A stretch of DNA of 64,000 bases, taken from the NCBI RefSeq assembly GCF_001306035.1, contig NZ_LGCM01000039.1, positions 124,001 through 188,000 on the forward strand. Reading direction: 5' to 3'. The notes under the pieces are model-generated. The model was not told where the DNA came from, did no database searches, and saw only the letters and a list, made by a program, of their open reading frames with translations. This stretch comes from Levilinea saccharolytica (GTDB taxonomy: Bacteria; Chloroflexota; Anaerolineae; Anaerolineales; Anaerolineaceae). This document shows, in pieces, positions 10,649 to 15,084 of the stretch. A program made the translations under genes and the position numbers. Position 1 is the first letter of the stretch, and each line of letters opens with the position of its first letter.

Positions 10649-10698
10649 TGGGTTGAAACACTTGCAGTATCGGCTTGAGGCAGTTAGAAAGGGGCATC

Positions 10699-13416
10699 AT
10701 GGCAGCGAAAATAATGGTGGTTGAAGATGACGGCATCATCCGCGTCCATCTTCAAAATGTCCTCAAAAAAAACGGTTACGAAGTCTGCGGGATGGCCAGC
10801 AGCGGGCCGCAGGCTGTTGCCCTGGCGCTGGAAACCCGCCCCGACCTGATTCTGATGGATATCGTTCTCGACGGCCCCATGGACGGCATCGAAGCCGCGG
10901 CCGAGATCCACACCCAGGCCGATATTCCCATCATCTACCTGACCGCCTACGCGGACGCGCACATCATCGAACGCGCGCGCATCACCGACGCCTTTGGCTA
11001 CCTGCTCAAGCCGTTCGAAGAGCGCAGCCTGCTGGCCACGTTGCAAATGTCGCTCAAGAAATTCGAGCTGGAGAACCAACTGCGACTTTCCGAGGCTCGC
11101 TTCCGCAATTACTTTGAACTCAGCCTGGTGGGAACCGCCATCACCGGTCTGGACGGCCATCTGATCAACGGCAATCAGCGCTTTGCCGAAATCATGGGCT
11201 ATACCATTGACGAGATGCGCCAATTGAAATGGCAAGACATCACTCACCCCGATGACGTCGGCATCTCAGAATATTGGGCCGAGCGCATGCTCCAGGAAAA
11301 CCTGGATCAATATTCGCTGGAAAAGCGCTATATCCGCAAAGACGGCCAAACCATCTACACCCGCATTCAGGTGCGCAGTCTGCGCGGCGCTGACGGAGAA
11401 ACCAACTCCTTTTTATCCCACATCGAAGACATCACCGAAAGCAAGCTGGCCGAAGAAGCCCTGCGCCAGTCCGAAGCCACGCTGCGGGCCATCTTTGATT
11501 CCAGCCAGGAATCTTTCATCCTGTTGGACCGTCAGCGCATCATCCAGGCTTTCAACCGCGCGGCCAGCGAGCATTTTGAAACCATGACCGGCAAGAAGCT
11601 GCAAAAAGGTCTGGGGATTGAAATCTTCATTCCACAACCGAACCAGAAAAATTTCTTTCATAACATCCTCTCCGCTCTGCAAGGGCGCTACATCGAAGTA
11701 CAGCGCGAATTTCGCGTCCCCAACGCCTCTCCGCGCTGGTTCCGCCTGGGGTATAACCCGGTCAAAGATGAGGAAGGCAAAATAATCGGAACCTGCCTGA
11801 CCGCGATGGAGATCACCGAAAGCAAGCTGCACGCCCGCGAACAGCGCGCCATCGCCACCATCGCCTCGGCCCTGCGCGAAGCCACCCTGGCCAAAGATAT
11901 GTACCGCATCATCCTGGATAACGCCGCCGACTTGATGGAAGCCTCCAGCGCCTTGCTGATCATCCAGGCTTCTTGCCCAGGGGAAGATCAATGCGTTGAG
12001 GCCGTGGGGCAATGGCAGGCGCTTTCAGGCGGCGCCCCCCCCTCAGAAGAAATTCACCAGGCGGTGCTGGCATCGCGCCAGCCGTACATCAACAACGATC
12101 TGCCCATCCCCTTGCCCAGCCCGCTGGCGGCCCTTTCGGGCGGCGGGACGCGTTCGCTCATCTGCGTGCCCCTCGTCACCCGCGACCTGGCTCTCGGCAC
12201 GCTGTGGGTGGGCCGCAGCGTGCCCACCACCACCGCCGAAATTCGCGTGCTCACCGCGGTGGCAGATCTGGCCGCCAGCGCCATTCAGCGCGAAATCCTC
12301 TATGAGCAAACCCAGCGCCGCTTGCAGCAGGTGCAGACTCTGCGGCAGGTGGATGCCGCCATCAGCGCCAATCAGGACCTGGATCAGATTTTATCTCTGC
12401 TCACCCAGCACGCCGCCGCTCAACTGCAAGTCCCGGCCATTATCGTCCTGCGCTATGACCCTGCCGCCAACACCCTGCTGCCGCAGGCTCTGTACGGCCA
12501 GGTCACTTCTAACCCGCCCCCGCCGGTGCACATGCAGTTTGATCTGGCCGCCGAGGCGCTCTTTAAGCAAGCTACCTTGCAGCTCACCCGCCAAACCAGC
12601 CAGGTGACCACCGGCCGGCGCACCGCCTGGATGGCGGCCCACGGTTTTCATGATTATCTGGCCGTGCCCCTCATCGCCAAAGACGCCCCCAAAGGCGTTT
12701 TGGAGGTCTTCCTCGACCGTCCCCAACCCCTCGACCCGGATTGGTGGAACTTACTGGAAGCCATCGCCATCCAGGCTGCCATAGCCTTTGACAATTTCGA
12801 AATGGTGGATAATCTTCAGCGCAGCAACCAGGAGCTGATCCAGGCCTACGAGGCCACCCTGGCCGGTTGGGCGCGCGCCCTGAACCTGCGCGACCAGCCC
12901 ACCGAAACCCATTCACAGAATGTCATCAACCTCACCCTGCGCCTGGCCAGGCAGGTGGGCATCCCCGAAGAACAGCTGCCCCACATCCGCCGCGGGGCTT
13001 TGCTGCACGACATCGGCAAATTGGGCGTCCCCGACCGCATCCTGCGCAAACAAGGTCCCCTCAGCGAGGACGAAGCCGCCATCATGCGCCAGCATCCCCA
13101 ATACGCCTACGACATGCTCTACCCCATTGAGTTTCTGCGGCCCGCCCTCAACATCCCCTATGCCCACCACGAGCGCTGGGACGGCAGCGGCTATCCGCGC
13201 GGGCTGCGCGGCGAAGAAATTCCCCTGGAAGCGCGCATTTTCTCCATCGTGGATGTGTGGGATTCGCTCTGTTCCGACCGCCCCTACCGCAAAGCCTGGA
13301 GCCGCAAGCGCGCCTACGATCATATCCGCGCCCAGGCCGGCACCCAGTTTGACCCCCAGCTGGTGGAAGCTTTTCTGGCGATGGAGCCGTCCTTCCCCTG
13401 CGCGCAGGAAGAATGA
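10699..13416 (+). CDS. Response regulator with PAS, GAF and HD-GYP domains (c-di-GMP phosphodiesterase)
   Basis: 905 aa. Receiver at residues 5-120 with Asp54 (LILMD), two PAS domains (about 135-385), two GAF domains (about 390-715), and an HD-GYP domain at the C-terminus. The HD pair is in LLHDIGK (about 770) and the GYP in DGSGYPRGL (about 831), so the phosphodiesterase should be active. ATG 10699 is chosen because AAAGGGG lies just upstream and the receiver begins immediately; an in-frame extension to 10675 has no such support. It ends the operon and opposes the GGDEF protein, so the same kinase could control both making and destroying c-di-GMP. Confidence 0.92.
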   Translation: MAAKIMVVEDDGIIRVHLQNVLKKNGYEVCGMASSGPQAVALALETRPDLILMDIVLDGPMDGIEAAAEIHTQADIPIIYLTAYADAHIIERARITDAFGYLLKPFEERSLLATLQMSLKKFELENQLRLSEARFRNYFELSLVGTAITGLDGHLINGNQRFAEIMGYTIDEMRQLKWQDITHPDDVGISEYWAERMLQENLDQYSLEKRYIRKDGQTIYTRIQVRSLRGADGETNSFLSHIEDITESKLAEEALRQSEATLRAIFDSSQESFILLDRQRIIQAFNRAASEHFETMTGKKLQKGLGIEIFIPQPNQKNFFHNILSALQGRYIEVQREFRVPNASPRWFRLGYNPVKDEEGKIIGTCLTAMEITESKLHAREQRAIATIASALREATLAKDMYRIILDNAADLMEASSALLIIQASCPGEDQCVEAVGQWQALSGGAPPSEEIHQAVLASRQPYINNDLPIPLPSPLAALSGGGTRSLICVPLVTRDLALGTLWVGRSVPTTTAEIRVLTAVADLAASAIQREILYEQTQRRLQQVQTLRQVDAAISANQDLDQILSLLTQHAAAQLQVPAIIVLRYDPAANTLLPQALYGQVTSNPPPPVHMQFDLAAEALFKQATLQLTRQTSQVTTGRRTAWMAAHGFHDYLAVPLIAKDAPKGVLEVFLDRPQPLDPDWWNLLEAIAIQAAIAFDNFEMVDNLQRSNQELIQAYEATLAGWARALNLRDQPTETHSQNVINLTLRLARQVGIPEEQLPHIRRGALLHDIGKLGVPDRILRKQGPLSEDEAAIMRQHPQYAYDMLYPIEFLRPALNIPYAHHERWDGSGYPRGLRGEEIPLEARIFSIVDVWDSLCSDRPYRKAWSRKRAYDHIRAQAGTQFDPQLVEAFLAMEPSFPCAQEE

Positions 13417-13453: not shown

Positions 13454-13482
13454 TTGACAGATAGGCCTCCCGCTGGTATAGT
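13454..13482 (+). promoter_or_regulatory. Strong promoter of the leader peptide/NSS transporter unit
   Basis: Perfect TTGACA (13454-13459), 17-nt spacer, TATAGT (13477-13482). The predicted transcription start falls at or within 1-2 nt of the ATG at 13490, so the leader peptide would be translated from a leaderless end. Confidence 0.8.
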
Positions 13483-13489
13483 TGCCCCC

Positions 13490-13552
13490 ATGCTTACCGC
13501 CAACCTCCACCTCCATTATTATATTTATATGGAGCACCGCATCGCACCCTGA
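13490..13552 (+). CDS. Tyr/His-rich leader peptide (20 aa)
   Basis: A 20-codon ORF begins at the predicted transcript 5' end and stops with TGA at 13550-13552. Its middle reads HLHYYIYMEHR: three Tyr codons (all TAT, nt 13517-13528) and three His codons within eleven. Such clustering of one or two amino acids, ahead of alternative RNA hairpins and a terminator, is the hallmark of leader peptides in ribosome-mediated attenuation. The downstream gene encodes an NSS-family amino-acid symporter, a family that includes the tyrosine transporter Tyt1 of Fusobacterium and the tryptophan transporter TnaT. No ribosome-binding site is visible or needed if the mRNA is leaderless. Confidence 0.7.
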   Translation: MLTANLHLHYYIYMEHRIAP

Positions 13553-13646
13553 TGACCGGCGGAGGTTTTCGAACCACCTACCCGCCTAGCGGCAAAAGCA
13601 GATTTTTCAAGAAAACGCTCCCCGGTCAACCCCGGGGAGTTTTTTT
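13502..13646 (+). promoter_or_regulatory. Attenuator: mutually exclusive hairpins controlling the NSS transporter
   Basis: Three pairings can be traced by eye. (1) AACCTCC (13502-13508), or the repeat ACCTCC (13509-13514), with GGAGGTT (13561-13567). (2) CCGGCGGAG (13556-13564) with the terminator's 5' arm CTCCCCGG (13618-13625), with one bulged C. (3) The terminator itself. Pairing 1 blocks pairing 2. A ribosome stalled on the Tyr codons at 13517-13528 would cover both CCTCC segments and free the antiterminator; a ribosome released at the stop codon would cover GGAGG and favour termination. A GGTT-TTCG-AACC hairpin (13564-13575) adds a pause-type element. Confidence 0.65.
13618..13646 (+). 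terminator. Intrinsic terminator inside the NSS leader
   Basis: CTCCCCGG (13618-13625), 6-nt loop, CCGGGGAG (13632-13639) and seven T (13640-13646). It lies 50 nt upstream of the transporter start, not behind a gene, which is why it is read as an attenuator terminator. Confidence 0.85.
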
Positions 13647-13695
13647 GTGAATACCGGGATTTTCCCCGTATATCTTATTTTTAGGAGCAGGAACT

Positions 13696-15084
13696 ATGCA
13701 GTCCGCACAACCCTCCCGTCTCTCCGCAGCAGCACGCGGAAGCTTCGCCACCGCCCTGGGGGCGCTGGTGGCCACTATTGGATCCGCAGTCGGCCTCGGC
13801 AACATCTGGAAATTCCCTTACCTGGTTGGCAACAACGGCGGCGCAGCATTTATCATCCTTTATTTGGTTTGCACCCTCCTGGTGGGTCTGCCGGTGATGA
13901 TTGCAGAAATTATGATGGGCCGCAAAGCCCGCGCCAACGCCATCCAAACCATGCGCGCTCTTTCACCCAGCGCCCGTCAGCCCTGGTGGCTCATCGGCGC
14001 AGCCGGGGCATTGGCCGCCTTCCTGATCATGGCCTTCTACACCGAGGTGGCTGGATGGGTGTTTGCCTATGTCTTCAAAGCCATCTCCGGCGCCATCCTC
14101 TCCACCGATCCTCAAGTGACCTCGCAAGCCTTCACCGACCTGGTCACCAGTCCCTTCCAGTCTTTGCTCTGGCAGTGGATTGTGCTGGCCGTCATCAGCC
14201 TGATCATCGTCAACGGCGTGTCCAAAGGCATCGAGGCCACCACCAAACGCCTCATCCCCCTGCTCTTGGTCATGCTCATCATCATCGCCGTGCGCAGCCT
14301 GACCCTCCCCGGCGCAAGCCAGGGCCTCGCCTTCCTCTTCACCCCCGATTTCTCCAAAATCACCGGCGCCGCCGTGCTCACCGCGATGGGTCTGGCCTTC
14401 TTCAAGCTCTCCATCGGCATGGGCACCATGATCACTTACGGTTCCTACTGGAAAGAGGATCAAAACATCCCCACCGGAACCGCGCGGGTGATGTTGGCAG
14501 ACCTCAGCGTTTCCGTCCTGGCGGGTCTGGCGGTGTTTCCCGCGGTGTTCGCCTTCGGCTTCGAACCGGCGGCTGGCCCCTCCCTGCTGTTCATCACCAT
14601 CCCCTCCGTGTTCGCCTCCATGCCTTTCGGCGGTGTCTTCATGACCCTGTTCTTCATCCTGACCGCCTTTGCCGCCACGGGAGCCATGCTCTCCCTGCTG
14701 GAAGTGCCCATCGCTTACATGAACGAACGTTTTGCCATCTCACGCGTCAAAGCCACCCTCATCACCACCGGCCTGCTGGCCGTGGTAGGCGCCCCGGCAG
14801 CCCTCTCCAGCTCCACCTTGAGCGGGGTAAAGCTCTTTGGCATGAACTTCTTCGACCTGTATGATTTCGCCTCCTCAAATCTGCTCCTGCCCATCGGCGG
14901 CCTGTTCATCGCCATCTTCGTGGGCTGGTTCTGGGGCCGCAAGAACGTCTTTGAGGCGCTCACCAACAGCGGTGTCCTCAAGAACGAAGGTGTGGTGCGT
15001 GCCTTCTGGGTGATCGTGCGCTTCGTCACCCCCGTGCTGGTCATCCTTGTGCTGCTCAACGGTCTGGGGATCATCGGCGGGTAA
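13696..15084 (+). CDS. Neurotransmitter:sodium symporter family amino-acid transporter
   Basis: 462 aa, about eleven to twelve hydrophobic segments, the length of LeuT-fold NSS proteins. The first helix carries the family hallmark GSAVGLGNIWKFP (about residues 28-41), which forms part of the Na+ and substrate sites. AGGAG (13683-13687) lies 8 nt before the ATG. Bacterial members carry leucine, tryptophan or tyrosine with Na+ across the inner membrane. The Tyr-rich leader peptide upstream suggests tyrosine or a related aromatic amino acid as the substrate; the protein sequence alone does not settle this. It is transcribed alone, converging on the UDP-glucose dehydrogenase gene. Confidence 0.9.
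   Translation: MQSAQPSRLSAAARGSFATALGALVATIGSAVGLGNIWKFPYLVGNNGGAAFIILYLVCTLLVGLPVMIAEIMMGRKARANAIQTMRALSPSARQPWWLIGAAGALAAFLIMAFYTEVAGWVFAYVFKAISGAILSTDPQVTSQAFTDLVTSPFQSLLWQWIVLAVISLIIVNGVSKGIEATTKRLIPLLLVMLIIIAVRSLTLPGASQGLAFLFTPDFSKITGAAVLTAMGLAFFKLSIGMGTMITYGSYWKEDQNIPTGTARVMLADLSVSVLAGLAVFPAVFAFGFEPAAGPSLLFITIPSVFASMPFGGVFMTLFFILTAFAATGAMLSLLEVPIAYMNERFAISRVKATLITTGLLAVVGAPAALSSSTLSGVKLFGMNFFDLYDFASSNLLLPIGGLFIAIFVGWFWGRKNVFEALTNSGVLKNEGVVRAFWVIVRFVTPVLVILVLLNGLGIIGG

Follow-up and report, generated by a model that had tools for sequence, protein, structure and literature searches.

The classical Trp, His, Phe, Leu, and Ilv attenuators of Proteobacteria combine a leader ORF carrying the relevant codons with mutually exclusive helices and a stop codon at the switching arm, and the same elements are found at the locus described here, upstream of an amino acid importer gene in Levilinea saccharolytica. 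The best-known classical attenuators, equipped with Shine-Dalgarno sites, stand ahead of operons for biosynthesis or tRNA synthetases, whereas the present one precedes an importer gene, has a predicted leaderless ORF, and belongs to another phylum. Leaderless sensor ORFs reportedly occur in Actinobacteria: judging by the titles, Canestrari in 2020 (cited in PMC9031893) described leaderless polycysteine ORFs of mycobacteria and cysteine-responsive operons, and Neshat in 2014 (cited in PMC11995493) is said to have described leaderless attenuator sites in C. glutamicum, one of them aromatic and with biosynthesis as its target. These reportedly share with the Levilinea leader a short sensor ORF at or near the RNA 5′ end (for the mycobacterial ORFs, the title says so), and they differ, as far as the titles go, in serving cysteine operons or aromatic biosynthesis rather than an importer, and in phylum. 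TnaC, the tna operon leader peptide, regulates a Trp permease along with tryptophanase and responds to excess Trp by nascent-peptide arrest and Rho. It likewise stands ahead of an aromatic permease gene, and it differs from the present leader in its response to excess Trp and in its use of arrest and Rho. In the Bacillus cereus group, NSS transporters are controlled by T-boxes for Leu, Phe, and Trp (PMC2494555), which link the same carrier family to a tRNA-charging signal and to starvation-induced uptake. A T-box reads uncharged tRNA directly, whereas a translating ribosome is the predicted sensor in Levilinea; the logic that T-boxes achieve for NSS carriers in Firmicutes would thus be achieved here by the ribosome.

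A survey in 2010 added Firmicutes to Proteobacteria and Actinobacteria, previously the only groups with leader-peptide systems (PMC2965389), and leaderless genes make up about 4.7% in the Chloroflexi genomes where they are detected (PMC3160421). The multidrug transporter BmrC/BmrD is a known case of ribosome-mediated attenuation (PMC4191407), and PMC9413887 mentions His attenuators that possibly include a transporter. Searches of open-licence papers, which leave room for an earlier mention elsewhere, returned no leader-peptide attenuator in Chloroflexi or on an NSS carrier. The preliminary description of the locus had considered a tyrosine- or His-sensing attenuator on Na+-coupled uptake in a Chloroflexota-type genome to be undescribed. 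The well-known leader-peptide cases serve biosynthesis; here the target is an importer, in organisms many of which are apparently unable to make aromatic amino acids. On the best reading, the locus would be mechanistically a leader-peptide attenuator, and what is new would be its transporter target, its putative leaderless leader peptide, and its Chloroflexota host. This suggests that leader-peptide attenuation extends to uptake and to Chloroflexota.

Leader anatomy upstream of the symporter gene

The window (the whole stretch of L. saccharolytica DNA analyzed, 64 kb) was scanned on both strands for a promoter followed by a leaderless ORF of 8 to 40 codons and a strong terminator, and the sole match was the leader at positions 13454 to 13647 (Table 1). 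The promoter lies where the preliminary description had placed it, but it is near-perfect rather than perfect, matching the consensus at 11 of 12 bases. The leader ATG is 7 nt past the −10 hexamer, and the RNA 5′ end is therefore expected on the start codon or 1 to 2 bases off. The 20-codon ORF that had been described as starting on an ATG at the transcription start point is present with its three TAT (Tyr) and three His codons, and so are the terminator hairpin and the short arm motifs AACCTCC (13502 to 13508), CCGGCGGAG (13556 to 13564), GGAGGTT (13561 to 13567), and CTCCCCGG (13618 to 13625). A strict arm pattern had four matches in 147 genomes of the family, all four before the gene for this transporter, and the same pattern read backwards had none. 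On the same strand upstream of the attenuator, positions 10675 to 13416 encode a large protein with response-regulator, PAS, GAF, and HD domains.

Table 1. Features of the putative attenuator and its regulated gene, in window coordinates
Feature	Position	Strand	Basis
Sigma-70 promoter: −35 TTGACA (13454-13459), 17-nt spacer, −10 TATAGT (13477-13482)	13454-13482	+	Sequence; orthologous promoters equally distant from the ORF
Putative leaderless leader-peptide ORF MLTANLHLHYYIYMEHRIAP, 20 codons; ATG at 13490, stop TGA at 13550-13552	13490-13552	+	Sequence, orthologues
Control codons TAT TAT ATT TAT (Tyr Tyr Ile Tyr), predicted stall site	13517-13528	+	Sequence; aromatic codons at the equivalent orthologue position
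Arm 1, within the first ORF codons, pairs with arm 2	13495-13512	+	Folding; weakly supported across orthologues
Arm 2, antiterminator 5′ arm (TGACCGGCGGAGGTTTTC), immediately 3′ of the leader stop codon	13553-13572	+	Folding, covariation
Arm 3, antiterminator 3′ arm, overlaps the terminator 5′ arm (13617-13625)	13612-13628	+	Folding
Intrinsic terminator, 9-bp stem GCTCCCCGG/CCGGGGAGT and T run; hairpin at 13617-13640	13617-13647	+	Sequence, folding
Regulated gene, NSS (SNF) sodium-coupled amino acid symporter, MhsT-like, 462 aa, SD-like AGGAG upstream	13696-15084	+	Family and structure matches

Orthologous leaders

The transporter was found in 30 of the 147 Anaerolineaceae genomes, and a search of the order added two in another family. 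The attenuator anatomy is present at 18 loci. One of them (L128) belongs to the other family; the remaining 17, among them the window and the sister species, are in the window's family. The preliminary description had proposed that orthologues be checked for a short ORF, Tyr codons, and covarying arms, and the ORF is indeed kept: the 17 further loci share a short, usually leaderless ORF, with an antiterminator arm where the ORF stops and then a terminator. A promoter-like sequence is found at nearly all 18 loci. The orthologue leader peptides include MKAFYTCYFRFHHTFFPAWICDGE, VNERMKNSCFYWLPIILFCPRQWVTGGGCKFN, MSELIHISMYMYLYLKPTSPAEV, MMFSPSLTQSDAHYFIIWRHTSPQPVERLPRA, MYKQMTMIAFRHNILPFWYITKKVFGG, MQASLKINLSQIAIAWYLFTKPNQRVRF, and MPNTNLASFIIFWHIIDLPRRLPG. 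Between the window and the sister species (L002), the whole ORF differs by one synonymous base, and four differences fall in the promoter spacer and in the bases that follow the −10 hexamer. The near-identical sister was left out of the covariation set, which comprises 17 leaders; manual choices fixed the leader starts, the aromatic clusters, and the terminator arms. The start codon lies 6 to 10 nt past a −10-like hexamer in 15 of 17 leaders; in nearly every leader this spacing is precisely 7 or precisely 10 nt, values that differ by one codon. All 17 leaders have their stop codon between −5 and +30 nt relative to the start of arm 2. In L014, a tmRNA gene (767 to 1160) lies directly upstream of the transporter leader.

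A complete copy is absent at 14 of the 32 orthologous loci, and some of these are half-way loci, with arms and no ORF (L017), a frame continuing into the transporter (L018), or a six-codon ORF, VFLYIQ, without a terminator (L009). In L018, the leader frame (MGPYRSMPHVLLYWHRERKK...) lacks a stop codon; it stays open through the terminator sequence and joins the transporter frame, as in a fusion of the two. The leaderless ORF of L009 stands behind a promoter, roughly 163 nt ahead of the point where the transporter alignment begins, with no terminator found, and genomes of its genus keep the promoter-like sequence without the attenuator. No such leader was found outside the order, in 18 upstream regions of orthologues from Geomonas, Aquitalea, Carboxydothermus, Clostridium, and others, or ahead of an additional two NSS genes (L130 and L131) from other parts of the phylum. 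In relatives, the regions ahead of DAHP synthase, trpE, and leuA-like genes yielded no convincing leaderless candidates.

Mutually exclusive helices and covariation

The antiterminator and the terminator, which have one arm in common, are mutually exclusive in the folds of the window and its orthologues, as had been proposed; the antiterminator is longer than was described, with positions 13553 to 13572 pairing with 13612 to 13628 over about 17 bp (TGACCGG-C-GGAG-GTTTTC with GAAAAC-G-CTCC-CCGGTCA). The folding energies in the window are −22.4 kcal/mol for the antiterminator, −19.6 kcal/mol for the terminator core, and −17.2 kcal/mol for the arm 1:arm 2 helix. Masking of the RNA to position 13543, as by a ribosome stalled at the Tyr codons, leaves the antiterminator as the fold of lowest energy (−35.3 kcal/mol), even with the terminator 3′ arm included. 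When the RNA is masked to 13534 only and the terminator is complete, the terminator is the minimum, which indicates that the margin of the antiterminator is small and that the order of transcription matters. Once the ribosome has moved to the stop codon, the terminator becomes the minimum and is the sole helix left. As read from the structures, the stalled-state minimum includes the antiterminator in 15 of 17 leaders.

The arms also covary, as the proposed check had anticipated. The pairing of each arm 2 with its own arm 3 was better than that of randomly re-paired leaders, with 54 of 100,000 permutations as good; with equal-length regions, 66 of 200,000 re-pairings were as good, and with a longer arm 3 and an arm 2 that was not preselected by pairing, 4 of 200,000. 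Shuffling of the arm-2 region gave a combined p of 2.7e-7 across the 17 leaders. The usual CCGGYGGAG/CTCCCCGG is replaced by GGCGGTT/GACCGCC in L026, and the arms of L128 are CCGGG-TAA-GATTG/CAATC-CCCGG. The arm 1:arm 2 pairing has a p of 0.002 in the window and is weak over the set of 17 (combined p 0.004; 1090 of 20,000 permutations as good).

Leader codons and the sensed amino acids

Phe, Tyr, and Trp codons number 61 in the pooled leaders, compared with 45.3 (sd 5.5) in base-shuffled versions, and 4 of 3000 shuffles were as high. Among the 17 leaders, Trp accounts for 10 of 352 in-frame codons and for 1 of 680 codons read in the two alternative frames (about 20-fold, p 1.5e-4), and Ile and Met are likewise enriched in frame. 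Tyr and Phe alone are equally frequent in the other frames of these leaders and give no frame-specific signal, which can be attributed to T-rich sequence; the tyrosine claim is therefore not generalizable, and it is Trp, Ile, and Met that carry the in-frame signal. The window ORF has no Trp codon, and another of its frames is equally rich in aromatic residues. Together with the stop-codon positions, the codon statistics indicate that the reading frame is in use and that the sensed class is aromatic.

Tyr-only control codons occur in the window's genus and in L014, and the other orthologues have FYW, YFIIW, WYLF, YLW, FIIFW, and similar runs; the leader of L027 has a single aromatic codon. The tyrosine sensing that had been claimed would thus hold as aromatic-type attenuation, with aromatic codons kept at the equivalent place, and would not extend as Tyr-only sensing beyond that genus and L014. 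The His codons, which had been offered as an alternative signal, are not conserved in orthologues. Tyr is the natural reading of the window's own leader, and sensing across the group would be best described as aromatic rather than tyrosine type, as the leaders mix Tyr, Phe, and Trp with Ile. Alternatively, what the leader peptide senses may be not the aromatic amino acids but any slowing of translation, or the hydrophobic class with Ile, Leu, and Met among its members. The in-frame enrichment of Ile and Met besides Trp and the joint share of F, Y, W, I, L, and M (45.5% in frame, compared with about 37% in the other frames) favor this, as does the acceptance of aliphatic besides aromatic substrates by MhsT-type carriers. 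However, the enrichment of Trp is the largest, and the control run of the window is Tyr-Tyr-Ile-Tyr, which makes such broader sensing unlikely; the aromatic class is perhaps widened to aliphatic hydrophobic residues. A more tentative proposal, possible yet somewhat doubtful, is that the leaderless attenuators of Anaerolineales form a family whose control codons shift between genera (Tyr only, Phe-Tyr-Trp, and Phe-Ile), tracking the substrates of a broad importer or the limiting aromatic amino acid. If so, the leader peptide could be read as a record of the carrier's substrates. The leader may serve as a sequence-based hint at transporter substrates in this largely uncultured group.

Proposed mechanism and alternative explanations

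The locus is very likely a ribosome-mediated transcription attenuator that senses the charging of aromatic tRNA, here tyrosyl-tRNA, and controls the MhsT-like importer. RNA polymerase would initiate on the leader AUG or 1 to 2 bases off, and a ribosome would load on the leaderless 5′ end and trail the polymerase. When aromatic aminoacyl-tRNA is scarce, the ribosome would stall at Tyr-Tyr-Ile-Tyr and occupy arm 1, leaving arm 2 free to pair with arm 3; the terminator would then be blocked and the importer gene transcribed. When aminoacyl-tRNA is plentiful, the ribosome would reach the stop codon and cover arm 2, the terminator would form, and transcription would end at about 13647. Transcription of the importer gene is thus probably decided by a ribosome stall on a tiny tyrosine-rich frame.

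Nascent-peptide arrest as in TnaC or SpeFL, in which a free aromatic amino acid holds the finished leader and excess rather than starvation alters transcription, would also account for a short aromatic-rich leader ahead of an amino acid gene with its stop codon adjoining the switching arm. However, the leader peptides differ in sequence among genera, unlike arrest peptides, which depend on fixed residues, and the helices are mutually exclusive in the classical attenuator order, so arrest is highly improbable. A metabolite riboswitch, a T-box, or an RNA-binding protein site that drives the terminator, with the ORF incidental, is brought to mind by the T-boxes before trpE in relatives of the family and by those on the NSS carriers of the B. 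cereus group. Little credence is given to it, as no Rfam family reached the threshold at the window or at nine orthologue leaders, no conserved aptamer was seen, and conservation is confined to the arms and the ORF geometry. The T-box model RF00230 had no match at the window or the nine orthologue leaders, and the same search was positive before trpE-like genes of three relatives. A match to the Rfam His_leader family (E 3.7) was at chance level. A fixed terminator without regulation, limiting read-through from upstream genes, fits the response-regulator type gene that ends at 13416 on the same strand, but it can practically be dismissed, as the hairpin is 3′ of a strong promoter and the competing antiterminator covaries in 17 leaders.

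Transporter and aromatic amino acid metabolism

The identification of the controlled gene as an NSS symporter is upheld: its product is a sodium:neurotransmitter-symporter (SNF) family protein whose closest solved relative is MhsT (4us3, E 1.6e-99), with the GMG motif in the TM6 segment conserved as in MhsT. The protein has one match in its own genome. MhsT transports aromatic and aliphatic hydrophobic amino acids, and the substrates in L. saccharolytica would likewise be aromatic or hydrophobic amino acids. The mix of Tyr, Phe, and Trp in the leaders fits these substrates of MhsT-type carriers.

In the window genome (97.65% complete), chorismate synthase, a TrpE-type enzyme, type I DAHP synthase, and an HMGL-like (LeuA-type) enzyme were not found, and chorismate synthase was likewise not found in the sister genome, which suggests that both species are probably aromatic auxotrophs. 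In such auxotrophs, control of uptake would stand in for control of synthesis. Across the family, the association of the attenuator with the absence of chorismate synthase is not significant (11/18 versus 5/14, p 0.29). T-box leaders (RF00230) precede trpE-like genes in three family genomes (L132, 2987 to 3304; L133, 503 to 801; and L134, 2753 to 3094), and a single lineage would therefore regulate synthesis through T-boxes and uptake through a leader sensed by the ribosome.
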